Source: Halobacterium rubrum
GTDB lineage: Archaea > Halobacteriota > Halobacteria > Halobacteriales > Halobacteriaceae
Assembly (NCBI RefSeq): GCF_021729015.1
Contig: NZ_JAJQQZ010000003.1
Location: 310,001 to 374,000 of the forward strand
DNA length: 64,000 bases
Reading direction: 5' to 3'
Positions 4,902 to 62,441 of this stretch are shown here, one piece after another (the first letter of the stretch is position 1; every line of letters starts with the position of its first letter). The translations under genes and the position numbers were made by a program. Under the pieces are notes generated by a model. The model had not been told where the DNA came from. It worked only from the letters and a program-made list of their open reading frames with translations, and did no database searches.

Positions 4902-4945
4902 CGCCCGGAGTCGGATTTTTGACCGTTCGCACCGAACCAGGTCCC

Positions 4946-5542
4946 GTGTCTCCCAGTCACCCGTCTCGCCGCTCGTACCTCGCCGGGGCCGCCGCCGTGG
5001 TCGCAGCCGGGCTCGCAGGCTGCGGTGGGTCGCCCGGAGCGAGCGACGAGCCGGACGACGGAGCCGACGAGGACGGCGCAGACGGAACGACTGCGGCCGA
5101 TTCACCACCGGCCGAGACGACCGTCGACGACGACGAAGACGACGGGGACGGCAGCGACGACGGCGACGACCTCGACTTGCGGGAGGCGAACGTGGTCGGC
5201 GTGGCTGTCGAACCCGACGAGAGTGGCGACGCCGGCGTCCAGTTCGACGTCACGCTGCTGCACGACGACGACGGGGAAGACGGCTACGCGAACTGGTGGC
5301 AGGTGGAGACGGTCGACGGCGACCGGCTGGGCCGCCGGGACCTATCGCACGCGCACGGGACGCAGGAGTTCACGCGCTCGAAGACGGTCGACGTACCGGA
5401 CGGCGTCTCGACGGTCGCGGTGCGCGGCCACGACCAGACGCACGGCTACGGCGGCCAGGCAGCGCTCGTCGACGTGGAGCGTGGCGACGTCGAGTTCGTC
5501 CAGCAGGGGCCACAGCGGCAGTCGATCGGCCACAGCGACTGA
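4946..5542 (+). CDS. Tat-exported lipoprotein of unknown function
   Basis: 198 residues from the GTG at 4946. A twin-arginine motif (SRRSYLAG) and a lipobox ending in Cys26 (GLAGC) mark it for export by Tat and lipid anchoring. A long acidic linker of Asp, Glu, Ser and Thr (about residues 30-75) follows, then a compact beta-rich domain of about 120 residues with NWWQVETVDGDRLGRRDLSHAHG, EFTRSKTVDVPDG and DQTHGYGGQ. Several His residues lie in that domain, but I do not recognise the family. It is convergent with the transducer gene at 5573. Confidence 0.7.
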   Translation: MSPSHPSRRSYLAGAAAVVAAGLAGCGGSPGASDEPDDGADEDGADGTTAADSPPAETTVDDDEDDGDGSDDGDDLDLREANVVGVAVEPDESGDAGVQFDVTLLHDDDGEDGYANWWQVETVDGDRLGRRDLSHAHGTQEFTRSKTVDVPDGVSTVAVRGHDQTHGYGGQAALVDVERGDVEFVQQGPQRQSIGHSD

Positions 5543-5572: not shown

Positions 5573-7975
5573 TCAGTCGCCGGAGCCGTCGGTGAAGGCG
5601 CCCGTAGCGCGGTCATCGGCGGCGTCACCGGCCTCGGCACCGCTCCGGTGGTCGTCGCCTCGCTCGCGTGCGTCGAACTGGTCGACGGTCGCGGCCAGCG
5701 AGTCGGCGCGCTCCCGGAGTTCGTCGGCGCTGCGCGCGATCTCCGCGACAGACGCGGACTGCTCCTCGGCGGCCGCCGACACCTGCTCGGCGTCCTCCGT
5801 GACGTTCTGGCTGATGTCGGCGACCTCGTCGACGCGCCGAACGACGCTCTGCGTGGCTTCGGCCTGGTCGTCGGTGGCGTCCGCGATCTCCTGGATGCCG
5901 TGGTTGGCATCCTCGATGGCGTCGACGGTGTCCTCGATGGCGTCGGCGGCCTCGCGAACAGTCTCGACGCCGGTGTCGATGTGGTCGCTGGTCGCGCGGA
6001 TGTCCGCGACCGTCTCGTCCGTCTCCGACTGGACGGTCGCGATCTCGGCCTCGATCTCGGCCGCCGCCTCCTTCGTCTCCTCGGCGAGGTCCTTGACCTC
6101 GTCGGCGACCACGGCGAACCCGTCGCCGTCCTCGTCGGCGCGGGCGGCCTCGATGTTCGCGTTCAGCGCGAGCATGTTCGTCTGCTCGGCGATGTCCGTG
6201 ATGAAGTCGACAATCTCGCCGATGTCGGCCATGCGCTCCTGGAGTTCCAGAATCTGGTCGACGGCGTCCGCCGACAGCGACTCGATCTCCGCCATGTCCT
6301 CGATGGCCGACTCGGCGGCCTCACGGCCGCTCTCGCCGCGCTCGACGGCCTCCTCCGCCGTCTCCGCGACCGTCGTGGAGGACGCCGCGACCTCCTCGAT
6401 GCTCGCGGACAGCTGGTCCATCTCGCCGGCGGCGTTCTCGAGGTCGTCGTGCTGCCTGATGGCGCCGTCGGCGATCTCCTGGATGCGCTCGCTGACCGTC
6501 TGGCTCGTGGTCTCGATCTCCTCGGCGCCGGTCGCCACCTCGAGGGTGGCGCTGGCGACCTCGTCGGCGAACGCCGCGACCTCGCCGACGGTCGCCTCGA
6601 GGCCGTCGAGCATCGCGTTGAACTCCGTAGCGACCTCCCGCATCGCGGCCTCCTCTGCGTCCTCGTCGAGGCGCTTCGTGAGGTCGCCGGCGGCGACCTC
6701 CTGCATCACCGCACTGTACTCGCCGGCGCGCTCCTGGAGGCGGCGGCTCGCCGCCTCGGCCTCCTCTTTCGCGCGTTCGGCTTCGGCTTGCGCGGACTCC
6801 GCCTCGGTGCGCAGCTCTTCGGCTTCCGCCCGCGCGGTCTCGGCCTCCTCGACGGCCTCTTCGGCTTCCTGGATGCGGTCCTGGAGCGAGACCCGCATGT
6901 CGTCGAAGCTCTCGTACAGCCGACCGATCTCGTCGGCCCGGGTCGTCGAGAGGTCGACGTCGAAGTCGCCGGCTTCGATGCGCTCGGCGCGGTCCCGCAG
7001 CTGCTTCAGCGGGTCGACCGTGCGTTTGCCGAGCACGACGCCGACGACCGACAGGGAGACGAGCGCGAGCAACACGAGCAGCCCGACCGTCTCCCCGACG
7101 GTGTCACTGACGCTGAACGCCTGTCTCGTGTCCAGACTCGTCACCGTCACCCAGTCCGTGTTCGGCACGGGCGCGAACGCATAGACACGACCGTCCAGGA
7201 CGGTCGTGACCGGCGCCGCACTGCCGTTCGCGTCACGAATCGCTGCGAGGCTCCCCCCGTGGGTGTCGGCGTCGAACTCGCGGTCGATGTTCAGCACCGT
7301 CTCGTCGTCCGTGTTCAGGATGGTGGTCTGCTTCGTGGAGTTCGCGTCGGCGAGCCGGTCGACCTGGCTCTGGATGCGCGTGACGACGACGAGGTGCGAC
7401 CCCTCGCGCTTCGGGACGGAGGACGCGAACGCCATCACGGGCTCGTCGTTGAGAACGGGCGAGCGGTACGACCGGCTGCTCGACCACACCTCGCTGTTGT
7501 TGCCGGGGCCCTCCGGCACCTCGGCGGTCGTCCACGGCGCGTCGAGTTCGGACAGCGACCGCCCCTCGAGTGGGAGCTCCGTGCTGGCCACGACCTCGCC
7601 GCGCGTGTCGTTGACGAGGTGCATGCTCACTACGTCCTCTGGCAGCAACTGGTCCTGCAGGAGGATGTACGCCGCCGCGCGCCGGTCGCTCTGCAGGGGC
7701 TCGCCCTGCGAGACGGAGCGTGTGTGGGTTCGCTGCTGTTGCACCCAGGACCCGATGGCGTCGCCCTCCAGCTGGCTGGTCTCGGCGAGCTGTTCGGTGG
7801 TCTGGCGTTCGACCGCCGCGGACGTCGCCTGGAACGTGAACGCGCCGGCGCCCGCGATGACGAGCAACACGGCGAGGAACGCGACGGCGAACTTCGCGGC
7901 GAACCGCCGACGCACGAACTCGGGAGCGATGCGGTCGAGGGCGCTCGCCAGACTGTCGAGGAGGCCGCCCGCCAT
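5573..7975 (-). CDS. Methyl-accepting chemotaxis transducer (Htr-type) paired with a BMP binding protein
   Basis: 800-residue halobacterial transducer. TM1 at about residues 28-49, an extracellular sensor of about 240 residues (Cache-like by size and layout), TM2 at about 290-315, HAMP, a long Ala/Glu-rich coiled coil, then the cytoplasmic signalling hairpin with [18 protein letters not shown] and [13 protein letters not shown], the contact region for CheW and CheA. The start ATG overlaps the stop of the BMP lipoprotein gene as TGATG, so the two are translated together. By analogy with the BasB-BasT and CosB-CosT pairs of Halobacterium salinarum, the lipoprotein probably binds a ligand and presents it to this transducer. 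Ligand type is inferred from the BMP family (nucleosides). Confidence 0.9.
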
Positions 7976-9126
7976 CAGGCACCACCCGTGTCGGAGCGCT
8001 CCGACGGCACGTCGATGTCACCGGACGCGATCCGCTCGCGGGACGCCGACAGCGCGCCCCTGACGTCGTCGGGAATCGCGGGCTCCAGCGAGGTCCCGTA
8101 GACGACGCCGACGCCGTCGCTCTCGAGGCCGAGGGAGACCACCTCCCCCGCCGGAAGGTCGTCTGTGACGGTCGCCGTGGCTGCGTCGTAGACGGCGACG
8201 TTGACGCGCTTGACCATGCTCGCGAGCACGACGTCGGCGTACCGCGGGTTGCTGCGGGACTGGTCGGAGTCCACGCCGATGGCGTACCGGCCGCTGGCCT
8301 GTGCGGCCTGGAAGACGCCGACGCCGGCGCCACCAGCGGCGTGGTAGACGATGTCCGCGCCGTCGTCGTACATGCCGGCGGCGATGTCGCGGGCGCCCTG
8401 TACGTCGCCGAAGTTCCCGAGGTACTCCGTGAGGACCTCGACGTCCTCGTCGGCGTGTGCGACACCGGCTTCGAAACCGACCTCGAACTTGTGGATGAGC
8501 GGCATGTCGACGCCGCCCACGAAGCCAACTGTCGTCTCTTCGGGGTTCGTCGCACCCGCTCCGAGGTTCACGTCGCTGGACGTGAGCAGCCCGGCGAGGT
8601 GGCCGGCCTGGAACGACCCCTCGTGTTCGCGGAAGACGTAGCTGGCGACGTTGTCGGCGTCGACGACGGAGTCGACGATCATGAACTGCTGGTCGGGGTA
8701 CTCCGGCGCCGTGGCGGACAGCCCCTCCGCCTGCAGGAACCCGACACAGCAGACGAGGTCGTAGTCGGGGTTCGTCGAGGCGGCGAGCTCCGCCTGCACC
8801 TCGGCGAACTCGGGGACGCTTTCCGGCTCGTGGTTCGTGTACTCGACGCCGTCGTCGAGCCGGGCGCGCTGGATGCCCCGGTTCGCGGCGTCGTTGAACG
8901 ACCGGTCGTCCAGCCCGCCGAGCGCGTACACCATGCCGACAGTCGCCGCTGCGTCGTCCTCGTCGACGCCGGCCGTGGTCGTCTGCGGGCCGTCGCCGGT
9001 GTCGTCGTCTCCCCCTCCGTTCTCCCCGAGTACTCCGAGACGGCCCGTGCAGCCGGCGAGTGCGGTGGCTGCAACAGCACTGCTCCCGGCGAGGAGCCGT
9101 CTCCTGGTAGTCGTTTTGTCGTGCAC
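7975..9126 (-). CDS. BMP-family (PnrA-like) ligand-binding lipoprotein
   Basis: 383 residues from a GTG start. It has a twin-arginine motif (TRRRLLAG), a lipobox ending in Cys26 (LAGC), an acidic linker, and a full BMP domain ([96 protein letters not shown]). Known BMP/PnrA proteins bind purine and other nucleosides. It resembles the importer lipoprotein at 55192 along the whole domain, but no permease or ATPase gene is nearby; instead its stop overlaps the start of a chemotaxis transducer. A sensing rather than import role is therefore likely. Confidence 0.9.
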
Positions 9127-9470
9127 GGTCGCTCTCCTGCGACGACACTGGCTCCGTACGCAAAAACTACCGCCCGTGCTTTTCGCGAATGATAACGGTA
9201 GCGGCGCTCTTTCGTTAGTCTAGTGAAATATCTGCGTGCAGTTGGCGGAGGAGACCACCGTGGGCCAGCTATCGGTGGGGCGAGTCAGTTCCCGTCGGAC
9301 TTCACCGTGACGGTTCTCGTCAGATTTTGCGCCGAACTGGCGGTATTCAGGAGGGCGTCACGCCCCTGACTGGGCCGCCTGCACGAGCCGTCTCGCTGGA
9401 ACTGCCGACTACCGCTTAAAAATGGGGTATGTATGTACGGGGTACTCCCAGTTTCCCGCAGCAGTGCCGT
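9127..9470. other. Intergenic region with divergent promoters
   Basis: About 340 bp without a credible gene, between the divergent BMP lipoprotein (9126) and halocyanin (9504) genes. It is less GC-rich than the coding DNA. AT-rich patches at 9160-9235 probably hold the promoter of the BMP-transducer operon, and TTAAAAATG at about 9417-9425 is a second TATA-like tract. No clear repeat or RNA structure was seen. Confidence 0.5.
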
Positions 9471-9478
9471 TACTTAAG
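9471..9478 (+). promoter_or_regulatory. TATA box of halocyanin at 9504
   Basis: TACTTAAG, 26-33 nt upstream of the ATG at 9504, consistent with a leaderless transcript; this also favours that ATG over the upstream in-frame ATG at 9429. Confidence 0.7.
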
Positions 9479-9503
9479 CGTACGTGGCCCCGAGTCTCGG
9501 GTG

Positions 9504-10016
9504 ATGACTCGCGACACTCGACTCGACCGTCGGACGATGCTGAAATCTACGGGCGCAGCGGTAGCAGCGACACTCCTCGCCGGCTGTTCCGGTGGCGGGG
9601 GCGGCGACGGCGGTGACGACGGTGGCGACGAGGGCGGCGACGAGACGACGGCCACCGAGGAGGACAGCGGGTCCGGCGACGGCGGGTCCGGCGGCGACAA
9701 CACCGTCGCCGTCTCGCCGGACGGCGGCCTGAACTTCGCACCCGAGGAGCTCACTGTCTCCGTCGGTGACACGGTCACCTGGGACTTCCAGGCGCCCACG
9801 CACAACGTCGCTGCGTGGCCGGACATGCACGACAAGATCTCCATCCCGGACGGCGCCGAGGGCTTCGGCACCATGGAGAAAGGCGGCGACGCCTACGCTA
9901 CCGTCGGGGAAGGCGAGACCTTCGAGCACACCTTCGAGACGGCGGGCGAGTACACGTACGTCTGCACGCCGCACGCCGCCTCCGGCATGGTCGCTACCAT
10001 CGTCGTCGAAGAGTAA
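9504..10016 (+). CDS. Halocyanin-type blue copper lipoprotein
   Basis: 170 residues. Twin-arginine motif (DRRTMLKS), lipobox ending in Cys28 (LLAGC), then a low-complexity Gly/Asp/Glu/Thr spacer to about residue 66 and one plastocyanin-like domain. Copper ligands are visible as His100 (APTHNVAAW), Cys154, His157 and Met162 (YVCTPHAASGM). Expected to carry electrons on the cell surface, like the 282 paralogue, from which it differs in the long Gly-rich linker. An upstream in-frame ATG at 9429 was not used because the TATA box lies between it and 9504. Confidence 0.9.
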   Translation: MTRDTRLDRRTMLKSTGAAVAATLLAGCSGGGGGDGGDDGGDEGGDETTATEEDSGSGDGGSGGDNTVAVSPDGGLNFAPEELTVSVGDTVTWDFQAPTHNVAAWPDMHDKISIPDGAEGFGTMEKGGDAYATVGEGETFEHTFETAGEYTYVCTPHAASGMVATIVVEE

Positions 10017-55161: not shown

Positions 55162-55169
55162 TTTATGAA
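55162..55169 (+). promoter_or_regulatory. TATA box of the nucleoside importer operon
   Basis: TTTATGAA, 23-30 nt upstream of the ATG at 55192. This spacing rules in that start and rules out the upstream ATG at 55165, which lies inside the TATA box. Confidence 0.7.
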
Positions 55170-55191
55170 TATTCGTGCCGCGCTTCAATCT

Positions 55192-56355
55192 ATGTCAGAG
55201 TTCGACCGGCGGACGTTTCTGAAAACGACCGCGGGCCTCGGCGTCGTGGGCCTCGGCGGAATCGCAGGCTGTACAGGGGGCCCGTCGGGAGACGGCGACG
55301 AGGACACGACGACGGAGAGTACCACGGAGGACACGGGTGGCGGCGACGAGGACACGACTACCGAGTCCGACGGCGGCGACGAGGGCGACGTGACGAACGT
55401 CGGGATGGTGTACGCCACTGGCGGTCTCGGCGACGGTTCGTTCAACGACCAGGCCCAGCAGGGCCTCCTCGCGGCGGCCGACGACTTCAACGTCGAGTAC
55501 CAGGAGACCCAGCCCGACGAGGCGGCGCAGTTCGGTAACTTCCAGCAGCAGCTGGCCGGTTCCACGGACCCCGACTACGACCTCGTGTCCTGTATCGGGT
55601 TCCTCCAGCAGGACTCACTCTCCCAGACGGCGCCCCAGTACCCCGACCAGGACTTCCAGATCGTCGACCAGACCGTCGACGAGCCGAACGTCGCGAGCTA
55701 CACGTTCCGCGAGCACGAGGGGTCGTTCCTCGCGGGCGTGCTCGCCACCGAGCTCTCCTCGATGGACTTCAGCGCCGCGGAGAGCTCCACGGCATCGGAC
55801 TCGACGAACCTCGGGTTCGTCGGCGGCATCGAGAGCGCGCTCATCAAGAAGTTCGAGGCCGGGTTCAAGGCCGGCGTGAAGTACACCAACGAGAACTTCG
55901 ACGTCTCGACGTCCTACACCGGCAGCTTCAACGACCCGACGGCGGGCCAGGAGGCCGCGCTCTCGATGTACTCCTCCGGCGCGGACATCGTCTACCACGC
56001 CTCCGGGAACACCGGCACCGGCGTCTTCCAGGCGGCACAGGAGAAGGGCCGGTTCGCCATCGGCGTCGACCGCGACCAGTCCGTGACGAAAGAGAGTTAC
56101 GCCGACGTCATCCTCGCCAGCATGGTCAAGCGCGTCGACACCGCCGTCTACAACGCCATCGAGGCGAAGGTCAACGGCGAGTACCCCGGCGGGAGCCAGG
56201 AGACGCTGGGCCTCCCCGAGGAGGGTGTCGCGCTGGTGTACGGCCAGCAGCTCGGCTCCGAGGTGCCCGACGATGTCCAGAGCACGGTCGCCGACGCACG
56301 CCAGGGCATCATCGACGGGGACATCGAGGTCCCGACCGATCCGTCGAACGTATAG
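55192..56355 (+). CDS. BMP-family nucleoside-binding lipoprotein
   Basis: 387 residues. Twin-arginine motif (DRRTFLKT), lipobox ending in Cys27 (GIAGC), a Thr/Asp/Glu/Gly linker (about 30-65), and a BMP domain ([53 protein letters not shown]). Binding protein of an ABC importer whose ATPase and permeases follow. Closely similar to the transducer-linked BMP protein at 7975. Confidence 0.92.
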   Translation: MSEFDRRTFLKTTAGLGVVGLGGIAGCTGGPSGDGDEDTTTESTTEDTGGGDEDTTTESDGGDEGDVTNVGMVYATGGLGDGSFNDQAQQGLLAAADDFNVEYQETQPDEAAQFGNFQQQLAGSTDPDYDLVSCIGFLQQDSLSQTAPQYPDQDFQIVDQTVDEPNVASYTFREHEGSFLAGVLATELSSMDFSAAESSTASDSTNLGFVGGIESALIKKFEAGFKAGVKYTNENFDVSTSYTGSFNDPTAGQEAALSMYSSGADIVYHASGNTGTGVFQAAQEKGRFAIGVDRDQSVTKESYADVILASMVKRVDTAVYNAIEAKVNGEYPGGSQETLGLPEEGVALVYGQQLGSEVPDDVQSTVADARQGIIDGDIEVPTDPSNV

Positions 56356-56391: not shown

Positions 56392-57963
56392 ATGACAGAT
56401 ACGGACGCGGCAGTCCGGCTCGAATCGATAACCAAACGCTTCCCGGGAGTCGTCGCCAACGACGACGTCGACCTGACTGTCGAGCGCGGCACCGTCCACG
56501 CGCTGCTCGGCGAGAACGGCGCCGGGAAGACGACGCTGATGAACGTCCTCTACGGGCTCTACCAGCCCACGTCGGGCCGCATCGAGGTCGACGGCGAGAC
56601 GCGCACGTTCGACTCGCCCCGAGACGCCATCGATGCGGGCGTCGGCATGATCCACCAGCACTTCATGCTGGTCGACACGATGACGGTCGCGGAGAACATC
56701 GCGCTCGGGAACGAACCCCGGAAGTACGGCGGGCTCGCCGTCGACCAGGACGCGACCCGCGAGGGGGTCGTGGAACTCAGCGAGCGCTACGGGTTCGACG
56801 TCGACCCCGACCAGCTCATCGAGGAGACGAGCGTCGGCGTCCAGCAGCGCGTCGAGATTCTGAAGGCGCTGTACCGTGGCGCGGACGTGCTCATCCTCGA
56901 CGAGCCGACGGCCGTGCTCACGCCACAGGAGGTCGAGGACCTGTTCGCGGTGCTCGAAGAGCTCACCGACCAGGGGAAGACGATCATCTTCATCACGCAC
57001 AAGCTCGGCGAAGCGATGCACGCCGCCGACGACATCACGGTGCTCCGTGACGGCAAGCACGTCGGCAGCGTCGCCGCCGACGAGACCTCCCGCGAGGAGC
57101 TCGCGGAGCTGATGGTCGGTCGGGAGGTCGTCCTCGAGATCGAGAAGCCGGACGTCGACGTCGGCGAGGAGGTGCTGTCCGTCGACTCCCTCAGCGTCAC
57201 CGACGACCGGGACGTCGAGGCCGTCTCGGACCTCTCGTTCTCGGTCCGCGAGGGCGAAGTGTTCGGCATCGCGGGCGTCGACGGGAACGGCCAGTCCGAG
57301 CTCGTCGAGGCGATCACCGGGCTCCGGAACCCCGAATCCGGGTCTGTCGCCTTCGACGGGGAGTCCATCACGTGGGACTCCCGCCGCGAACGCATCGACG
57401 CCGGGATGGCGTACGTCCCAGAGGACCGCCAGGAGCGCGGGCTCGTGATGGAGTTCGACCTCGTGGAGAACGGCATCCTCGGCAGCCAGCACGCCGACCC
57501 GTTCGCGTCTGGCGGCCGCATCGACTGGGGCGAGTCCCGGGTGCACGCCGAGCGCGTCGTCGAGGAGTACGACGTCCGACCGCCGGACGCCGACGCCGAC
57601 GCAGTGTCGCTGTCCGGCGGCAACCAGCAGAAGTTCGTCGTCGGCCGCGAGCTGGAGCGCGACCCCCGGCTGGTCGTCGCCACGCACCCGACGCGGGGCG
57701 TCGACGTCGGCAGCCAGGAGTTCATCCACGACCGGCTGCTGGACCTGCGGGCCGACGGCCGCGGTGTGTTGCTCGTGTCCTCGAAGCTCGACGAGGTCCG
57801 CGGGCTCTCCGACCGCCTCGCCGTGATGCACGACGGGGACGTGATGGCGGTCGTCGACCCCGACGAGGTCACGGAGGAACAGCTCGGGCTCCTGATGGCG
57901 GGCGAGCGCCCCGAGGAGATTCCGCACGCCGACAGCGCCGCGCCCGAGGGGGTGGAGCCGTGA
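56392..57963 (+). CDS. Nucleoside ABC importer ATPase (two ABC domains)
   Basis: 523 residues, tandem ATPase domains. First: Walker A GENGAGKTT at about 40-48, signature-like SVGVQQRVEILKAL, Walker B VLILDEPTAVLTP. Second: SGGNQQKFVVGRELERDP with VVATHPTRGVDV, where the Walker B acidic residues are replaced, as is usual for the sugar and nucleoside ATPases of this class. It lies 36 bp after the BMP gene and overlaps the permease start. Powers import in the operon. Confidence 0.92.
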   Translation: MTDTDAAVRLESITKRFPGVVANDDVDLTVERGTVHALLGENGAGKTTLMNVLYGLYQPTSGRIEVDGETRTFDSPRDAIDAGVGMIHQHFMLVDTMTVAENIALGNEPRKYGGLAVDQDATREGVVELSERYGFDVDPDQLIEETSVGVQQRVEILKALYRGADVLILDEPTAVLTPQEVEDLFAVLEELTDQGKTIIFITHKLGEAMHAADDITVLRDGKHVGSVAADETSREELAELMVGREVVLEIEKPDVDVGEEVLSVDSLSVTDDRDVEAVSDLSFSVREGEVFGIAGVDGNGQSELVEAITGLRNPESGSVAFDGESITWDSRRERIDAGMAYVPEDRQERGLVMEFDLVENGILGSQHADPFASGGRIDWGESRVHAERVVEEYDVRPPDADADAVSLSGGNQQKFVVGRELERDPRLVVATHPTRGVDVGSQEFIHDRLLDLRADGRGVLLVSSKLDEVRGLSDRLAVMHDGDVMAVVDPDEVTEEQLGLLMAGERPEEIPHADSAAPEGVEP

Positions 57964-59249
57964 GCGCGTCCGACCGAGCGCGCTCGGCGTTCGAGCGAAT
58001 CGTCACGGCGTCGGGCGTCGAACGCCTCCTCATCAGCGTCTCCGCGCTCGTGCTCTCGATTCTCATCGGGGGCGTCATCGTGCTCGCCGCCGGCCGGATG
58101 GCGGACTGCGGGACCGCGGCCTACCGGCTGGCGCTCCCCGGCAGCTTCGTCACGCAGTTCACGGGCGGCAGCGCGGTCGTCGCGATGGGGTTCTGTTACG
58201 ACCCGATAGCGGTGTACGACCTGCTGTTCCTCGGCGCGTTCGGCGACGTGCTGGGCGACCCGACGAACGGCCAGTTCGCCACGACGCTCGCCGAGACCAC
58301 CGTGCTCGCGTTCGCGGGCGTGGCGGTCGCCGTGGCGTTCCGCGCCGGCGTGTTCAACATCGGGGCGCAGGGCCAGCTCGTCGTCGGCGCGCTCACCACC
58401 GCCGTCACGCTGCTGTTCGTCGCGCCGCTGTTCGGTGGACTCGGCGTGCTCGGCACCGTCGTCGTGCTCCCGCTGGGCCTCCTGCTCGGTGCGCTCGGCG
58501 GCGGCCTCTACGGCGCGCTCCCCGGCGCGCTGAAGGCGTACGCCGACGCCAACGAGGTCATCACCACCATCATGTTGAACTTCGTCGCCACGTCGGTCGC
58601 GCTCTGGCTCGTCAACGACTCGAGCCGGTTCAAAGACCCCGACAGTTTCTCCAACCAGACCGTGCCGCTGCCGGAGTTCTCGCAGTTCCCGTCCGTCTTC
58701 TTCCGTGCCCGCGACGACTTCTCGGTCGTCGCGCTCGCCGTCGGCGTCCTCACGCTCGTCGGCGTCTGGTACCTGCTCACGCGGACGTCGTTCGGCTACG
58801 ACCTCCGCACGAGCGGCATCCAGCCCGACGCCGCCGAGTACGGTGGCGTCGACGCCGACCGCACCGTCGTCGCCAGCATGGCGCTGTCCGGCGCACTCGC
58901 GGGCATCGGCGGCGCCGTCTACGTGCTGATGATGCTCGGGAACTTCCAGACCGGCGTGCCGACGTACGGCTTCGACGGCATCACGGTCTCCATTCTCGCG
59001 GGCAACAACCCACTGGGCGTCGGGTTCGCGGCGCTGCTGTTCGGCGTGCTGAAGTCCGGCAGCATCGTCGTCCAGGTCGGCAGCGACGTGCCGCCGGAGC
59101 TTGTGGGCGTGCTCCGCGGGCTCATCATCCTGTTCGTCGCGATGCCGGAGTTCTTCCGGATGGCCGGGCGGCGCTTCGACTCGCTGCTGCCGGAGCGCGA
59201 GGAGCCACAGGGTGCCGTCGCGACCGACGGAGGTGTCAGCGATGAGTAG
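57960..59249 (+). CDS. Nucleoside ABC importer permease 1
   Basis: 429 residues from a GTG that overlaps the ATPase stop (GTGA). It has about eight to ten membrane segments with FRAGVFNIGAQGQLVVGAL and LKAYADANEVITTIMLNFVAT, the EAA-like coupling region of the branched-chain/nucleoside (RbsC/BMP-type) permease family. Pairs with the next gene. Confidence 0.9.
   Translation: MSASDRARSAFERIVTASGVERLLISVSALVLSILIGGVIVLAAGRMADCGTAAYRLALPGSFVTQFTGGSAVVAMGFCYDPIAVYDLLFLGAFGDVLGDPTNGQFATTLAETTVLAFAGVAVAVAFRAGVFNIGAQGQLVVGALTTAVTLLFVAPLFGGLGVLGTVVVLPLGLLLGALGGGLYGALPGALKAYADANEVITTIMLNFVATSVALWLVNDSSRFKDPDSFSNQTVPLPEFSQFPSVFFRARDDFSVVALAVGVLTLVGVWYLLTRTSFGYDLRTSGIQPDAAEYGGVDADRTVVASMALSGALAGIGGAVYVLMMLGNFQTGVPTYGFDGITVSILAGNNPLGVGFAALLFGVLKSGSIVVQVGSDVPPELVGVLRGLIILFVAMPEFFRMAGRRFDSLLPEREEPQGAVATDGGVSDE
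59229..59235 (+). promoter_or_regulatory. Strong ribosome binding site for permease 2
   Basis: GGAGGTG, 6 nt before the ATG at 59242, inside the end of permease 1. It supports internal initiation and fixes that start; most first genes in the window lack such a site. Confidence 0.7.
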
Positions 59250-60429
59250 CGCGACCGAGACTGCGTCCCGCAGCCTCTCGCGGACGTACGACTACCTGTT
59301 CGTGGGCCGCAGCCGCCTCCAGCAGGTCGTCGTCGCCGCCGGCCTCGTCGCACTCCTGGGGCTGGTCGGCGCCGCCGTCTTCTTCCCGGAGACGGCAGCG
59401 GCGGACCTCGTCGCCGTGCTCACGGATAGTTCGACGCTCGCGGCCACGCTCCGGCTGTCGGTTCCCATCGCGTTCGCCGCGCTCGGCGGCATCTTCGCCG
59501 AGAAGTCCGGCGTCATCAACATCGGCCTCGAGGGCCTGCTCATCATCGCCGCGTTCACCGGCATCTACGCGACCGACGTCACGGGAAGCGTCTGGTTCGG
59601 GCTGTTCGGTGGCGTCGTCGCGTCGACGCTGCTCGCGGCCCTGTTCGCCGTCGTCTGCATCGAGTTCAAGGCCGACCAGATTATCGCGGGGCTGGCGGTG
59701 TGGCTCATCGCGCTCGGGCTCGCGCCGTTCGCGTCCACCGTCGTCTACGGCGGCAAGACGTCCGCCAGCGTCGCCACCCTCCCGACAGTCACCGACATGG
59801 GGCTTCCGTTCGTCTCCGCCTTCGTCACGACCGAACTCGGGTTCGTCGTCGACCTCCCCGTCTTCGGGGTGCTCGACCTGCAGTCGTCGCTGGTCGGGCT
59901 GCCCTTCTTCGGCGCGCTGTTCGACGCGGGCCCCGCCGTCTACCTGATGTTCGTCGCAGTCGCGCTGTCGTGGTACACGCTGAACCGCACGGCGTTCGGC
60001 CGCTGGGTGCGCGCCAGCGGGGAGAACCCGAAGGCGCTGGACACTGCGGGTGTGAACGTTCACCGCGTCCGGTACGCCGCCGTGTTGCTGTCCGGCGTGC
60101 TCGCGGGAGTCGGTGGCGCCGCGCTCGCGCTCGGCATCGGCCAGTTCACGGGCAGCGGCCCGACGATGGTCAACGGCAAGGGGTTCATCGCCATCGTCGC
60201 GTACCTCTTCGGGAACTACAACCCGATCGGGGCGTTCTTCTCGACGATTCTGTTCGCGGGCCTCGACGCCACCCAGTTGACCCTGCAGGCCCGGGACGTC
60301 TTCCAGGTGCCGCGGCCTCTCGTCCGCACGATTCCGTACGTAGCGGTCATCGTCGTGCTGGCGCTGTTCGGCCGCACGCGACTGCCGAGCGCGGCCGGCG
60401 ACTCCTACGACTCCGGCGAGGGCGAGTGA
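59242..60429 (+). CDS. Nucleoside ABC importer permease 2
   Basis: 395 residues, polytopic. IFAEKSGVINIGLEGLLIIAA and FKADQIIAGLAVWLIALGLAPF are marks of the partner permease, and the C-terminal LFGNYNPIGAFFSTILFAGLDATQL is typical. It overlaps permease 1 by 8 bp. Confidence 0.9.
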   Translation: MSSATETASRSLSRTYDYLFVGRSRLQQVVVAAGLVALLGLVGAAVFFPETAAADLVAVLTDSSTLAATLRLSVPIAFAALGGIFAEKSGVINIGLEGLLIIAAFTGIYATDVTGSVWFGLFGGVVASTLLAALFAVVCIEFKADQIIAGLAVWLIALGLAPFASTVVYGGKTSASVATLPTVTDMGLPFVSAFVTTELGFVVDLPVFGVLDLQSSLVGLPFFGALFDAGPAVYLMFVAVALSWYTLNRTAFGRWVRASGENPKALDTAGVNVHRVRYAAVLLSGVLAGVGGAALALGIGQFTGSGPTMVNGKGFIAIVAYLFGNYNPIGAFFSTILFAGLDATQLTLQARDVFQVPRPLVRTIPYVAVIVVLALFGRTRLPSAAGDSYDSGEGE

Positions 60430-60478
60430 CAGCGAGGAGGACGGCGGCTTTTTGGCGGCGCGGCCGATAGCTGGCTGC

Positions 60479-60877
60479 ATGGACGACTCGGAGCTGCTCG
60501 CAGCCGCTCGCGACGCCACTGAGAACGCCTACGTGCCGTACTCGGAGTACGAGGTCGGCGCCGCGCTGCTGACCGCCAGCGGCGAGGTGTACACGGGCTG
60601 CAACGTGGAGAACGCCAACTACTCGAACAGCCTGCACGCCGAGGAGGTCGCCGTCGGGAAGGCGGTCAGCGCGGGCGACACCGAGTTCGAGGTGCTGGTC
60701 GTGACGTCGAGCGAGCGGGACGCGGTGACGCCGTGCGGGATGTGTCGACAGACGCTCGCGGAGTTCGGGGAGGACGACCTGCCGGTGCTCTGCGACGGTG
60801 GCGAGGACGGGTTCGTGCGATACACGCTCGGCGAGCTCGTGCCGGACACCATCTCGCCCGCGACACTGGGCAAGTAG
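60479..60877 (+). CDS. cdd: Cytidine deaminase
   Basis: 132 residues, the normal size of the homotetrameric form. Zinc site: LHAEEVAVGKA (His53, Glu55 as proton shuttle) and TPCGMCRQ (Cys86, Cys89). It deaminates cytidine and deoxycytidine to uridine compounds. 49 bp after the permease, in the salvage cluster, feeding uridine to the phosphorylase at 61620. Confidence 0.92.
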   Translation: MDDSELLAAARDATENAYVPYSEYEVGAALLTASGEVYTGCNVENANYSNSLHAEEVAVGKAVSAGDTEFEVLVVTSSERDAVTPCGMCRQTLAEFGEDDLPVLCDGGEDGFVRYTLGELVPDTISPATLGK

Positions 60878-61549: not shown

Positions 61550-61619
61550 CGTCGCCAGCGCCGCACCGCCGGCTGGCGAACGACAAGACACTTTGCGGGT
61601 GCACACCGAAGCAGGGGGC

Positions 61620-62441
61620 ATGCCTGGAACCAGCGAGGACCCGAACGAGGAGGTCCAGTACCACATCGAAGTCTCCGAGGGGGACGTCGCCGACGCGGTC
61701 CTCCTCCCCGGGAACCCCGAGCGCCTCGACAAAATCACGCCGCTGTGGGACGACCACGAAGAGCGGGCCTACCACCGCGAGTACCGCACGGCGACCGGCA
61801 CCTACGAGGGCACCCCCATCTCCGTTACGTCGACGGGCATCGGGTCGCCGTCGGCAGCCATCGCCGTCGAGGAACTTGCACGCGTCGGCGCGGACACCTT
61901 CATCCGCGTCGGTTCCTGTGGCGCGCTCCAGCCCGAGATGGAGCCCGGCGACCTCGTCATCACGCGCGGTGCCGTCCGCCAGGAGGGCACCAGCAACGAG
62001 TACGTCCGCGAGGACTACCCTGCCGTCGCCGACCACGAGGTCGTCGCCGCGCTCGTCGCCGCCGCCGAACGCCTCGGCCACGACTACCACGTCGGCCTCA
62101 CGATGAGCGCCGACTCCTTCTACGCCGGCCAGGGGCGCGACGGCTTCGACGGCTTCCGCGCGCCCGGCGCCGACGAGATGCTGGACGAACTCCGGGACGC
62201 CAACGTCAAGAACATCGAGATGGAGGCCGCCGCCATCTGCACGCTCGCGAACGTCTACGGCCTGCGAGCCGGCGCCATCTGTTCGGTGTTCGCCAACCGG
62301 GAGACCGGCGAGTTCCTCACCGAGGGCGAGTCCGTCGCCGCCGAGACCGCGAGCCTCGCGGTCCACCTGCTGGCGAAGATGGACCAAAAGAAGGCCGAAG
62401 CCGGCGTCGACCAGTGGCACGCAGGCCTCAGCCTCGACTGA
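61620..62441 (+). CDS. udp: Uridine phosphorylase
   Basis: 273 residues from the ATG at 61620; an upstream in-frame ATG at 61593 would add nine residues. NP-1 family: DAVLLPGNPERLDKITPLWD, SVTSTGIGSPSAAIAVEELA and RVGSCGALQPEMEPGDLVI, then NIEMEAAAICTLANVYGLRAG (Glu and Met of the nucleoside site). It cleaves uridine with phosphate to uracil and ribose 1-phosphate. Function fits the importer and cytidine deaminase upstream. Confidence 0.88.
   Translation: MPGTSEDPNEEVQYHIEVSEGDVADAVLLPGNPERLDKITPLWDDHEERAYHREYRTATGTYEGTPISVTSTGIGSPSAAIAVEELARVGADTFIRVGSCGALQPEMEPGDLVITRGAVRQEGTSNEYVREDYPAVADHEVVAALVAAAERLGHDYHVGLTMSADSFYAGQGRDGFDGFRAPGADEMLDELRDANVKNIEMEAAAICTLANVYGLRAGAICSVFANRETGEFLTEGESVAAETASLAVHLLAKMDQKKAEAGVDQWHAGLSLD

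Follow-up and report, generated by a model that had tools for sequence, protein, structure and literature searches.

The systems closest to the locus analysed here were described in Halobacterium salinarum, in which OE2170R was co-purified in 2012 with the transducer Htr6 and the core signalling proteins and was termed a putative BasB/CosB-like binding protein (PMC3579733). OE2196F, which co-purified with Htr18, represents a second such pair in this species (PMC3579733), and strain NRC-1 has been noted to carry a yufN (BMP) homologue, vng795 (PMC4176423). Among archaea, Thermococcus has a known nucleoside importer of the BMP type (PMC12628685). In nucleoside-bound BMP relatives, two phenylalanines stack on the base and further contacts are provided by Asp and Lys residues (PMC13325309, PMC7093131); the base contact made by Asp27 of PnrA is not common to the whole BMP/PnrA family, and its loop varies (PMC13325309). 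Further reports of haloarchaeal nucleoside taxis, or of a named BMP-Htr pair, could not be found in the open-licence literature.

The window analysed here is a stretch of 64,000 nucleotides from Halobacterium rubrum. A BMP lipoprotein ORF (9126..7975) is followed on the minus strand by a halobacterial transducer (Htr) ORF (7975..5573), with one base common to both CCTGATGGC. The features of the pair are as follows.

7975..9126, minus strand: BMP/PnrA-family lipoprotein, proposed nucleoside-binding receptor, 383 aa, GTG start, Bmp domain at residues 62-374 (PF02608, E=1.2e-61; AF2 model)
9049..9060, minus strand: lipobox LAGC (residues 23-26), downstream of an RRR Tat-type signal (sequence)
7973..7977, minus strand: TGATG stop/start overlap, lipoprotein TGA and Htr ATG sharing base 7975 (sequence)
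5573..7975, minus strand: halobacterial transducer Htr, 800 aa, ATG start, very probable orthologue of H. salinarum Htr6 (HAMP and MCPsignal; synteny)
7139..7816, minus strand: extracellular Htr sensor, aa 54-279, divergent dCache, between membrane helices aa 23-52 and 288-320 (dCache_1, 6pxy profile match, hydropathy)
6881..7036, minus strand: HAMP domain, aa 314-365 (Pfam)
5816..6322, minus strand: MCP signalling domain, aa 552-720 (Pfam)

An earlier note on this DNA had claimed that the two genes overlap as TGATG and that no transporter lies next to them, and both points were borne out by the ORF coordinates and the Pfam assignments of the neighbours. ORF reading and Pfam revealed no transporter gene among these neighbours, which encode a DGC-domain protein, a small lipoprotein, a cupredoxin and a CBS protein. 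The small lipoprotein gene (4902-5542) is convergent with htr and has no Pfam match, while the gene for the cupredoxin (halocyanin-like) lipoprotein (9429-10016) is divergent from the BMP gene. A cupredoxin gene likewise diverges from the BMP gene in H. salinarum (genome G064, locus L096 10944-11522); of the loci inspected, only the two from Halobacterium had this neighbour, and it was not found at the Haloarcula loci. The 3.07-Mb source genome was found to contain two BMP genes, one sensory and one importer-associated, and 15 transducers above the Pfam cut-off.

The Bmp domain of the lipoprotein scored 208.7 bits against a curated cut-off of 24.1; YufN belongs to the same family, PF02608. The AF2 model of the lipoprotein had a pLDDT of 83, with low values confined to the signal and linker. 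Foldseek comparison of this model revealed PnrA, Lbp and BmpD as the best matches, in complex with adenosine, uridine, inosine, thymidine or guanosine, while the riboflavin-binding RfuA (4iil), which has the same fold, gave a clearly lower match; in a further comparison RfuA was likewise much weaker (66 vs 140-149 bits). Alignment to the pocket reference residues (PnrA F36, F186 and the ribose Asp, together with the Phe151-, Asp225- and Lys242-equivalents; PMC13325309, PMC7093131) mapped the pocket of the window lipoprotein to F77, F214, F165, D152, D286 and K306. Among the 37 BMPs that precede an Htr gene (hereafter sensory BMPs), the equivalents of F77, F165, D152, D286 and K306 were kept in 37/37 and that of F214 in 36/37. 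As judged from this alignment, the sensory BMPs retain the PnrA/BmpA nucleoside pocket, from which the exact nucleoside is not predictable. Asp27 of PnrA is replaced by Ala in the sensory BMPs and in the majority of importer BMPs, and the specificity loop positions 28 and 32 are occupied by L and D in sensory BMPs vs T and G in importer BMPs. Since both Asp27 and these loop residues are changed, specificity may have shifted.

The second BMP gene of the window heads an operon with an ABC ATPase, two permeases, a cytidine deaminase and a uridine phosphorylase-like gene. Whole-domain similarity between the two lipoproteins, as proposed earlier, could be confirmed with 49% identity over a 386-column alignment. 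The comparison features are as follows.

55165..56355, plus strand: paralogous importer BMP lipoprotein, outside the pair (Pfam, alignment)
56392..57963, plus strand: importer ABC ATPase (profile searches)
58029..60429, plus strand: importer permease subunits 1 and 2, starts not settled (BPD_transp_2)
60452..60877, plus strand: cytidine deaminase downstream of the importer, over the curated cut-off (TIGR01354, E=6.5e-44)
61593..62441, plus strand: uridine phosphorylase-like nucleoside phosphorylase downstream of the importer, start codon uncertain (TIGR01718, E=4.6e-79, 265 bits against a cut-off of 280; PNP_UDP_1)

The assignment of this BMP branch to nucleosides is independently supported, because the importer neighbours include the cytidine deaminase and uridine phosphorylase-like genes and because the Thermococcus importer is described. 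Tandem duplicate BMP genes ahead of a nucleoside-type importer were also observed at three loci of one family.

Domain analysis of the transducer revealed HAMP (1.7e-17) and MCPsignal (3.7e-41) domains. The match of its sensor to dCache_1 was full-length and weak (E=0.0066; 3e-9 in one homologue), and a profile match to the MCP sensor structure 6pxy could also be obtained (E=3.4e-5). The AF2 prediction of the sensor, made from a six-sequence input, had a pLDDT of 48 and was taken for the rough helix-strand order only. Compared with the H. salinarum transducers beside BasB-/CosB-type genes, the Htr showed 37-38% identity over the whole length and 23-25% in the sensor. In a sensor tree, the BMP-paired Htr sensors formed one clade (96/97), and the sensors just outside it were partnered, where scanned, with Peripla_BP_6 (amino-acid-type) lipoproteins; three sensor labels in this comparison (L104, L107 and L115) were assumed from relatives. 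Because sensor clade and partner family coincide, a sensor family that reads lipoproteins, with one binding-protein family per branch, fits these data better than direct ligand binding.

Conservation was evaluated by searching the Htr sensor alone (aa 1-315) against 392 Halobacteriales genomes. Each of the 30 best matches (44-91% identity) was immediately preceded by a same-strand BMP gene, as were the next six, down to 41%, so that 36/36 of the closest matches were paired; sensor matches without a BMP started at 37-39% identity. The reverse order, Htr directly followed by BMP, occurred in five genomes belonging to a different family. The stop-start distance between BMP and Htr was mostly -1 or -4 bases, with a short gap in some families. 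Chance adjacency of the two genes was considered and ruled out, because 36 genomes carry the BMP upstream and five carry it downstream. A survey of this adjacency had been set as a check in the earlier note, and the arrangement extends well beyond the source genome. All 41 genomes with the pair carried at least one further BMP, compared with 289/392 genomes carrying any BMP, counts that are uncorrected for kinship. A search for a guessed promoter-like DNA pattern at one locus (L076) found none.

Further, a BMP tree of 102 rows was constructed, for which importer BMPs were sampled with a bias towards top-scoring Pfam matches. All 37 sensory BMPs fell into one clade (99/93), which was present in 98% of bootstrap trees and was separate from the BMPs whose neighbour is an ABC ATPase gene; its closest outside rows (83/86) belong to two genomes with the reversed order. 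This phylogeny gives the sensory BMPs a single origin from an importer BMP. The Haloarcula pairs nest within the Halobacterium pairs, and their BMPs are 80-83% identical to that of the window, vs 65% for the H. salinarum pair. The tree thus suggests that the BMP-Htr pair was transferred as a unit between genera.

Genome G064 was taken as H. salinarum on the basis of a bacteriorhodopsin identical at 100% over residues 3-262 to the H. salinarum query sequence; with the same query, the bacteriorhodopsin of the source genome was 92% identical, which places the window in a Halobacterium close to H. salinarum. The gene htr6 is taken here to be VNG0793. In G064, the BMP-Htr pair lies beside two further transducers, in an arrangement of order and strand that matches htr6, htr4 and htr18 in strain R1 (PMC3579733, Table 2). 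Because of this matching neighbourhood, the window pair very probably corresponds to the Htr6 system, with OE2170R as the BMP partner presumed by synteny; the G064 pair is the best match in H. salinarum, its neighbourhood corresponds, and the cupredoxin gene diverges from BMP in both. After the presumed htr18, a lipobox protein gene with an ATGA overlap (L116 2478-3728) could be seen, which had no Pfam match at E 0.001 and is presumably OE2196F. The earlier proposal of a third chemical class after BasB and CosB had overlooked Htr6-OE2170R and Htr18-OE2196F (PMC3579733), the former being, by synteny, the window pair.

As in pairs of the BasB-BasT kind, a lipobox binding protein is encoded together with a two-TM Htr and with no transporter. 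The earlier suggestion of such a pair with a nucleoside-type binding protein gains sequence support from the lipobox, PF02608, the pocket residues and the conservation. Since the pair is conserved, its BMPs form a single clade, the pocket is kept and the next sensors are partnered with amino-acid-type proteins, the best reading is a dedicated two-part nucleoside chemoreceptor, in which the BMP lipoprotein and the Htr would mediate taxis toward nucleosides; we assign this a probability of approximately 0.74. The BMP protein would be exported and lipid-anchored outside the cell, where a nucleoside would be bound between its two lobes. By analogy with BasB/CosB and bacterial systems, the closed form may then dock on the dCache-type sensor of its co-translated partner Htr, and the signal would travel from the sensor along HAMP and coiled coil to reach CheW/CheA. 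The outcome would be taxis, most likely attraction, toward nucleosides that are also taken up by the BMP importer.

The lipoprotein and Htr could instead form a dedicated pair for another small molecule, such as a nucleobase, a compound resembling riboflavin or a vitamin, or a different nucleoside-like metabolite. The fold shared with RfuA, the loss of Asp27 and a specificity loop unlike that of the importer class are consistent with such a ligand; however, the base-sandwich and ribose-holding residues are kept in 36-37 of the 37 sensory BMPs, and the top structural matches are nucleoside complexes, with RfuA much weaker, which makes this alternative unlikely. Less probable still is that the lipoprotein serves mainly as a second, unlinked importer binding protein, its site before htr being incidental or allowing shared use in import and taxis. 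Importer binding proteins of E. coli do serve both import and taxis (PMC12584664), and the identity to the importer lipoprotein fits this idea. The sensory BMPs nevertheless form a separate clade, none of whose members lies beside an ATPase gene in the tree sample, the overlap with htr is kept across several families, adjacency persists despite the flipped gene order, and neither ATPase nor permease genes adjoin the pair.

dCache domains usually bind ligands themselves, and the full-length, if weak, dCache match of the Htr sensor would agree with direct sensing, in which the lipoprotein would be dispensable. Nevertheless, sensors of the same family that adjoin BasB-/CosB-type genes are known to need their lipoproteins, and sensor clade and binding-protein family track together, so that this explanation appears very improbable.

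For Htr6, which like many halobacterial transducers lacks an assigned signal, a dedicated nucleoside receptor would supply a ligand class that can be tested in a strain whose genetics are established. Nucleoside taxis in E. coli has been inferred to act via a binding protein, and BMP-Htr offers a named candidate pair of protein and receptor. The single split from importer BMPs further illustrates how the capture of a binding protein would have opened a new chemical input to an archaeal chemoreceptor. More tentatively, and rather doubtful as a whole, the pair may represent the first archaeal nucleoside chemoreceptor, derived from a single recruitment of an importer protein, with a loop tuned to a set of nucleosides unlike that of the importer, by which haloarchaea would swim toward nucleosides from DNA or RNA breakdown.

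Among known systems, the E. coli Tap response to pyrimidine deoxyribonucleosides resembles the proposed function in that nucleoside chemotaxis is thought to use a binding protein, but receptor and lineage differ and the binding protein there is not identified (PMC12584664). PnrA/TmpC, S. pneumoniae PnrA and Borrelia BmpA and BmpD share the binding-protein family, the fold and the nucleoside pocket residues with the window protein; they are importer components rather than part of a chemoreceptor, and PnrA Asp27 is Ala in the window protein. CosB-CosT of H. salinarum has the same architecture, whereas CosB belongs to OpuAC (compatible solutes). BasB-BasT of the same species likewise combines a lipoprotein, encoded upstream, with an Htr of related sensor, but BasB is a Peripla_BP_6 protein (branched amino acid type) and the sensor is only ~25% identical. 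Htr6 (OE2168R)-OE2170R is orthologous by position, with 75% identity in the Htr and 65% in the BMP, and differs in a 4-base overlap vs one base in the window. The pair itself was thus very probably seen biochemically in 2012, with neither family nor ligand assigned (PMC3579733), and the present analysis adds its family, a ligand prediction, the distribution, the single origin and the variation in gene order.
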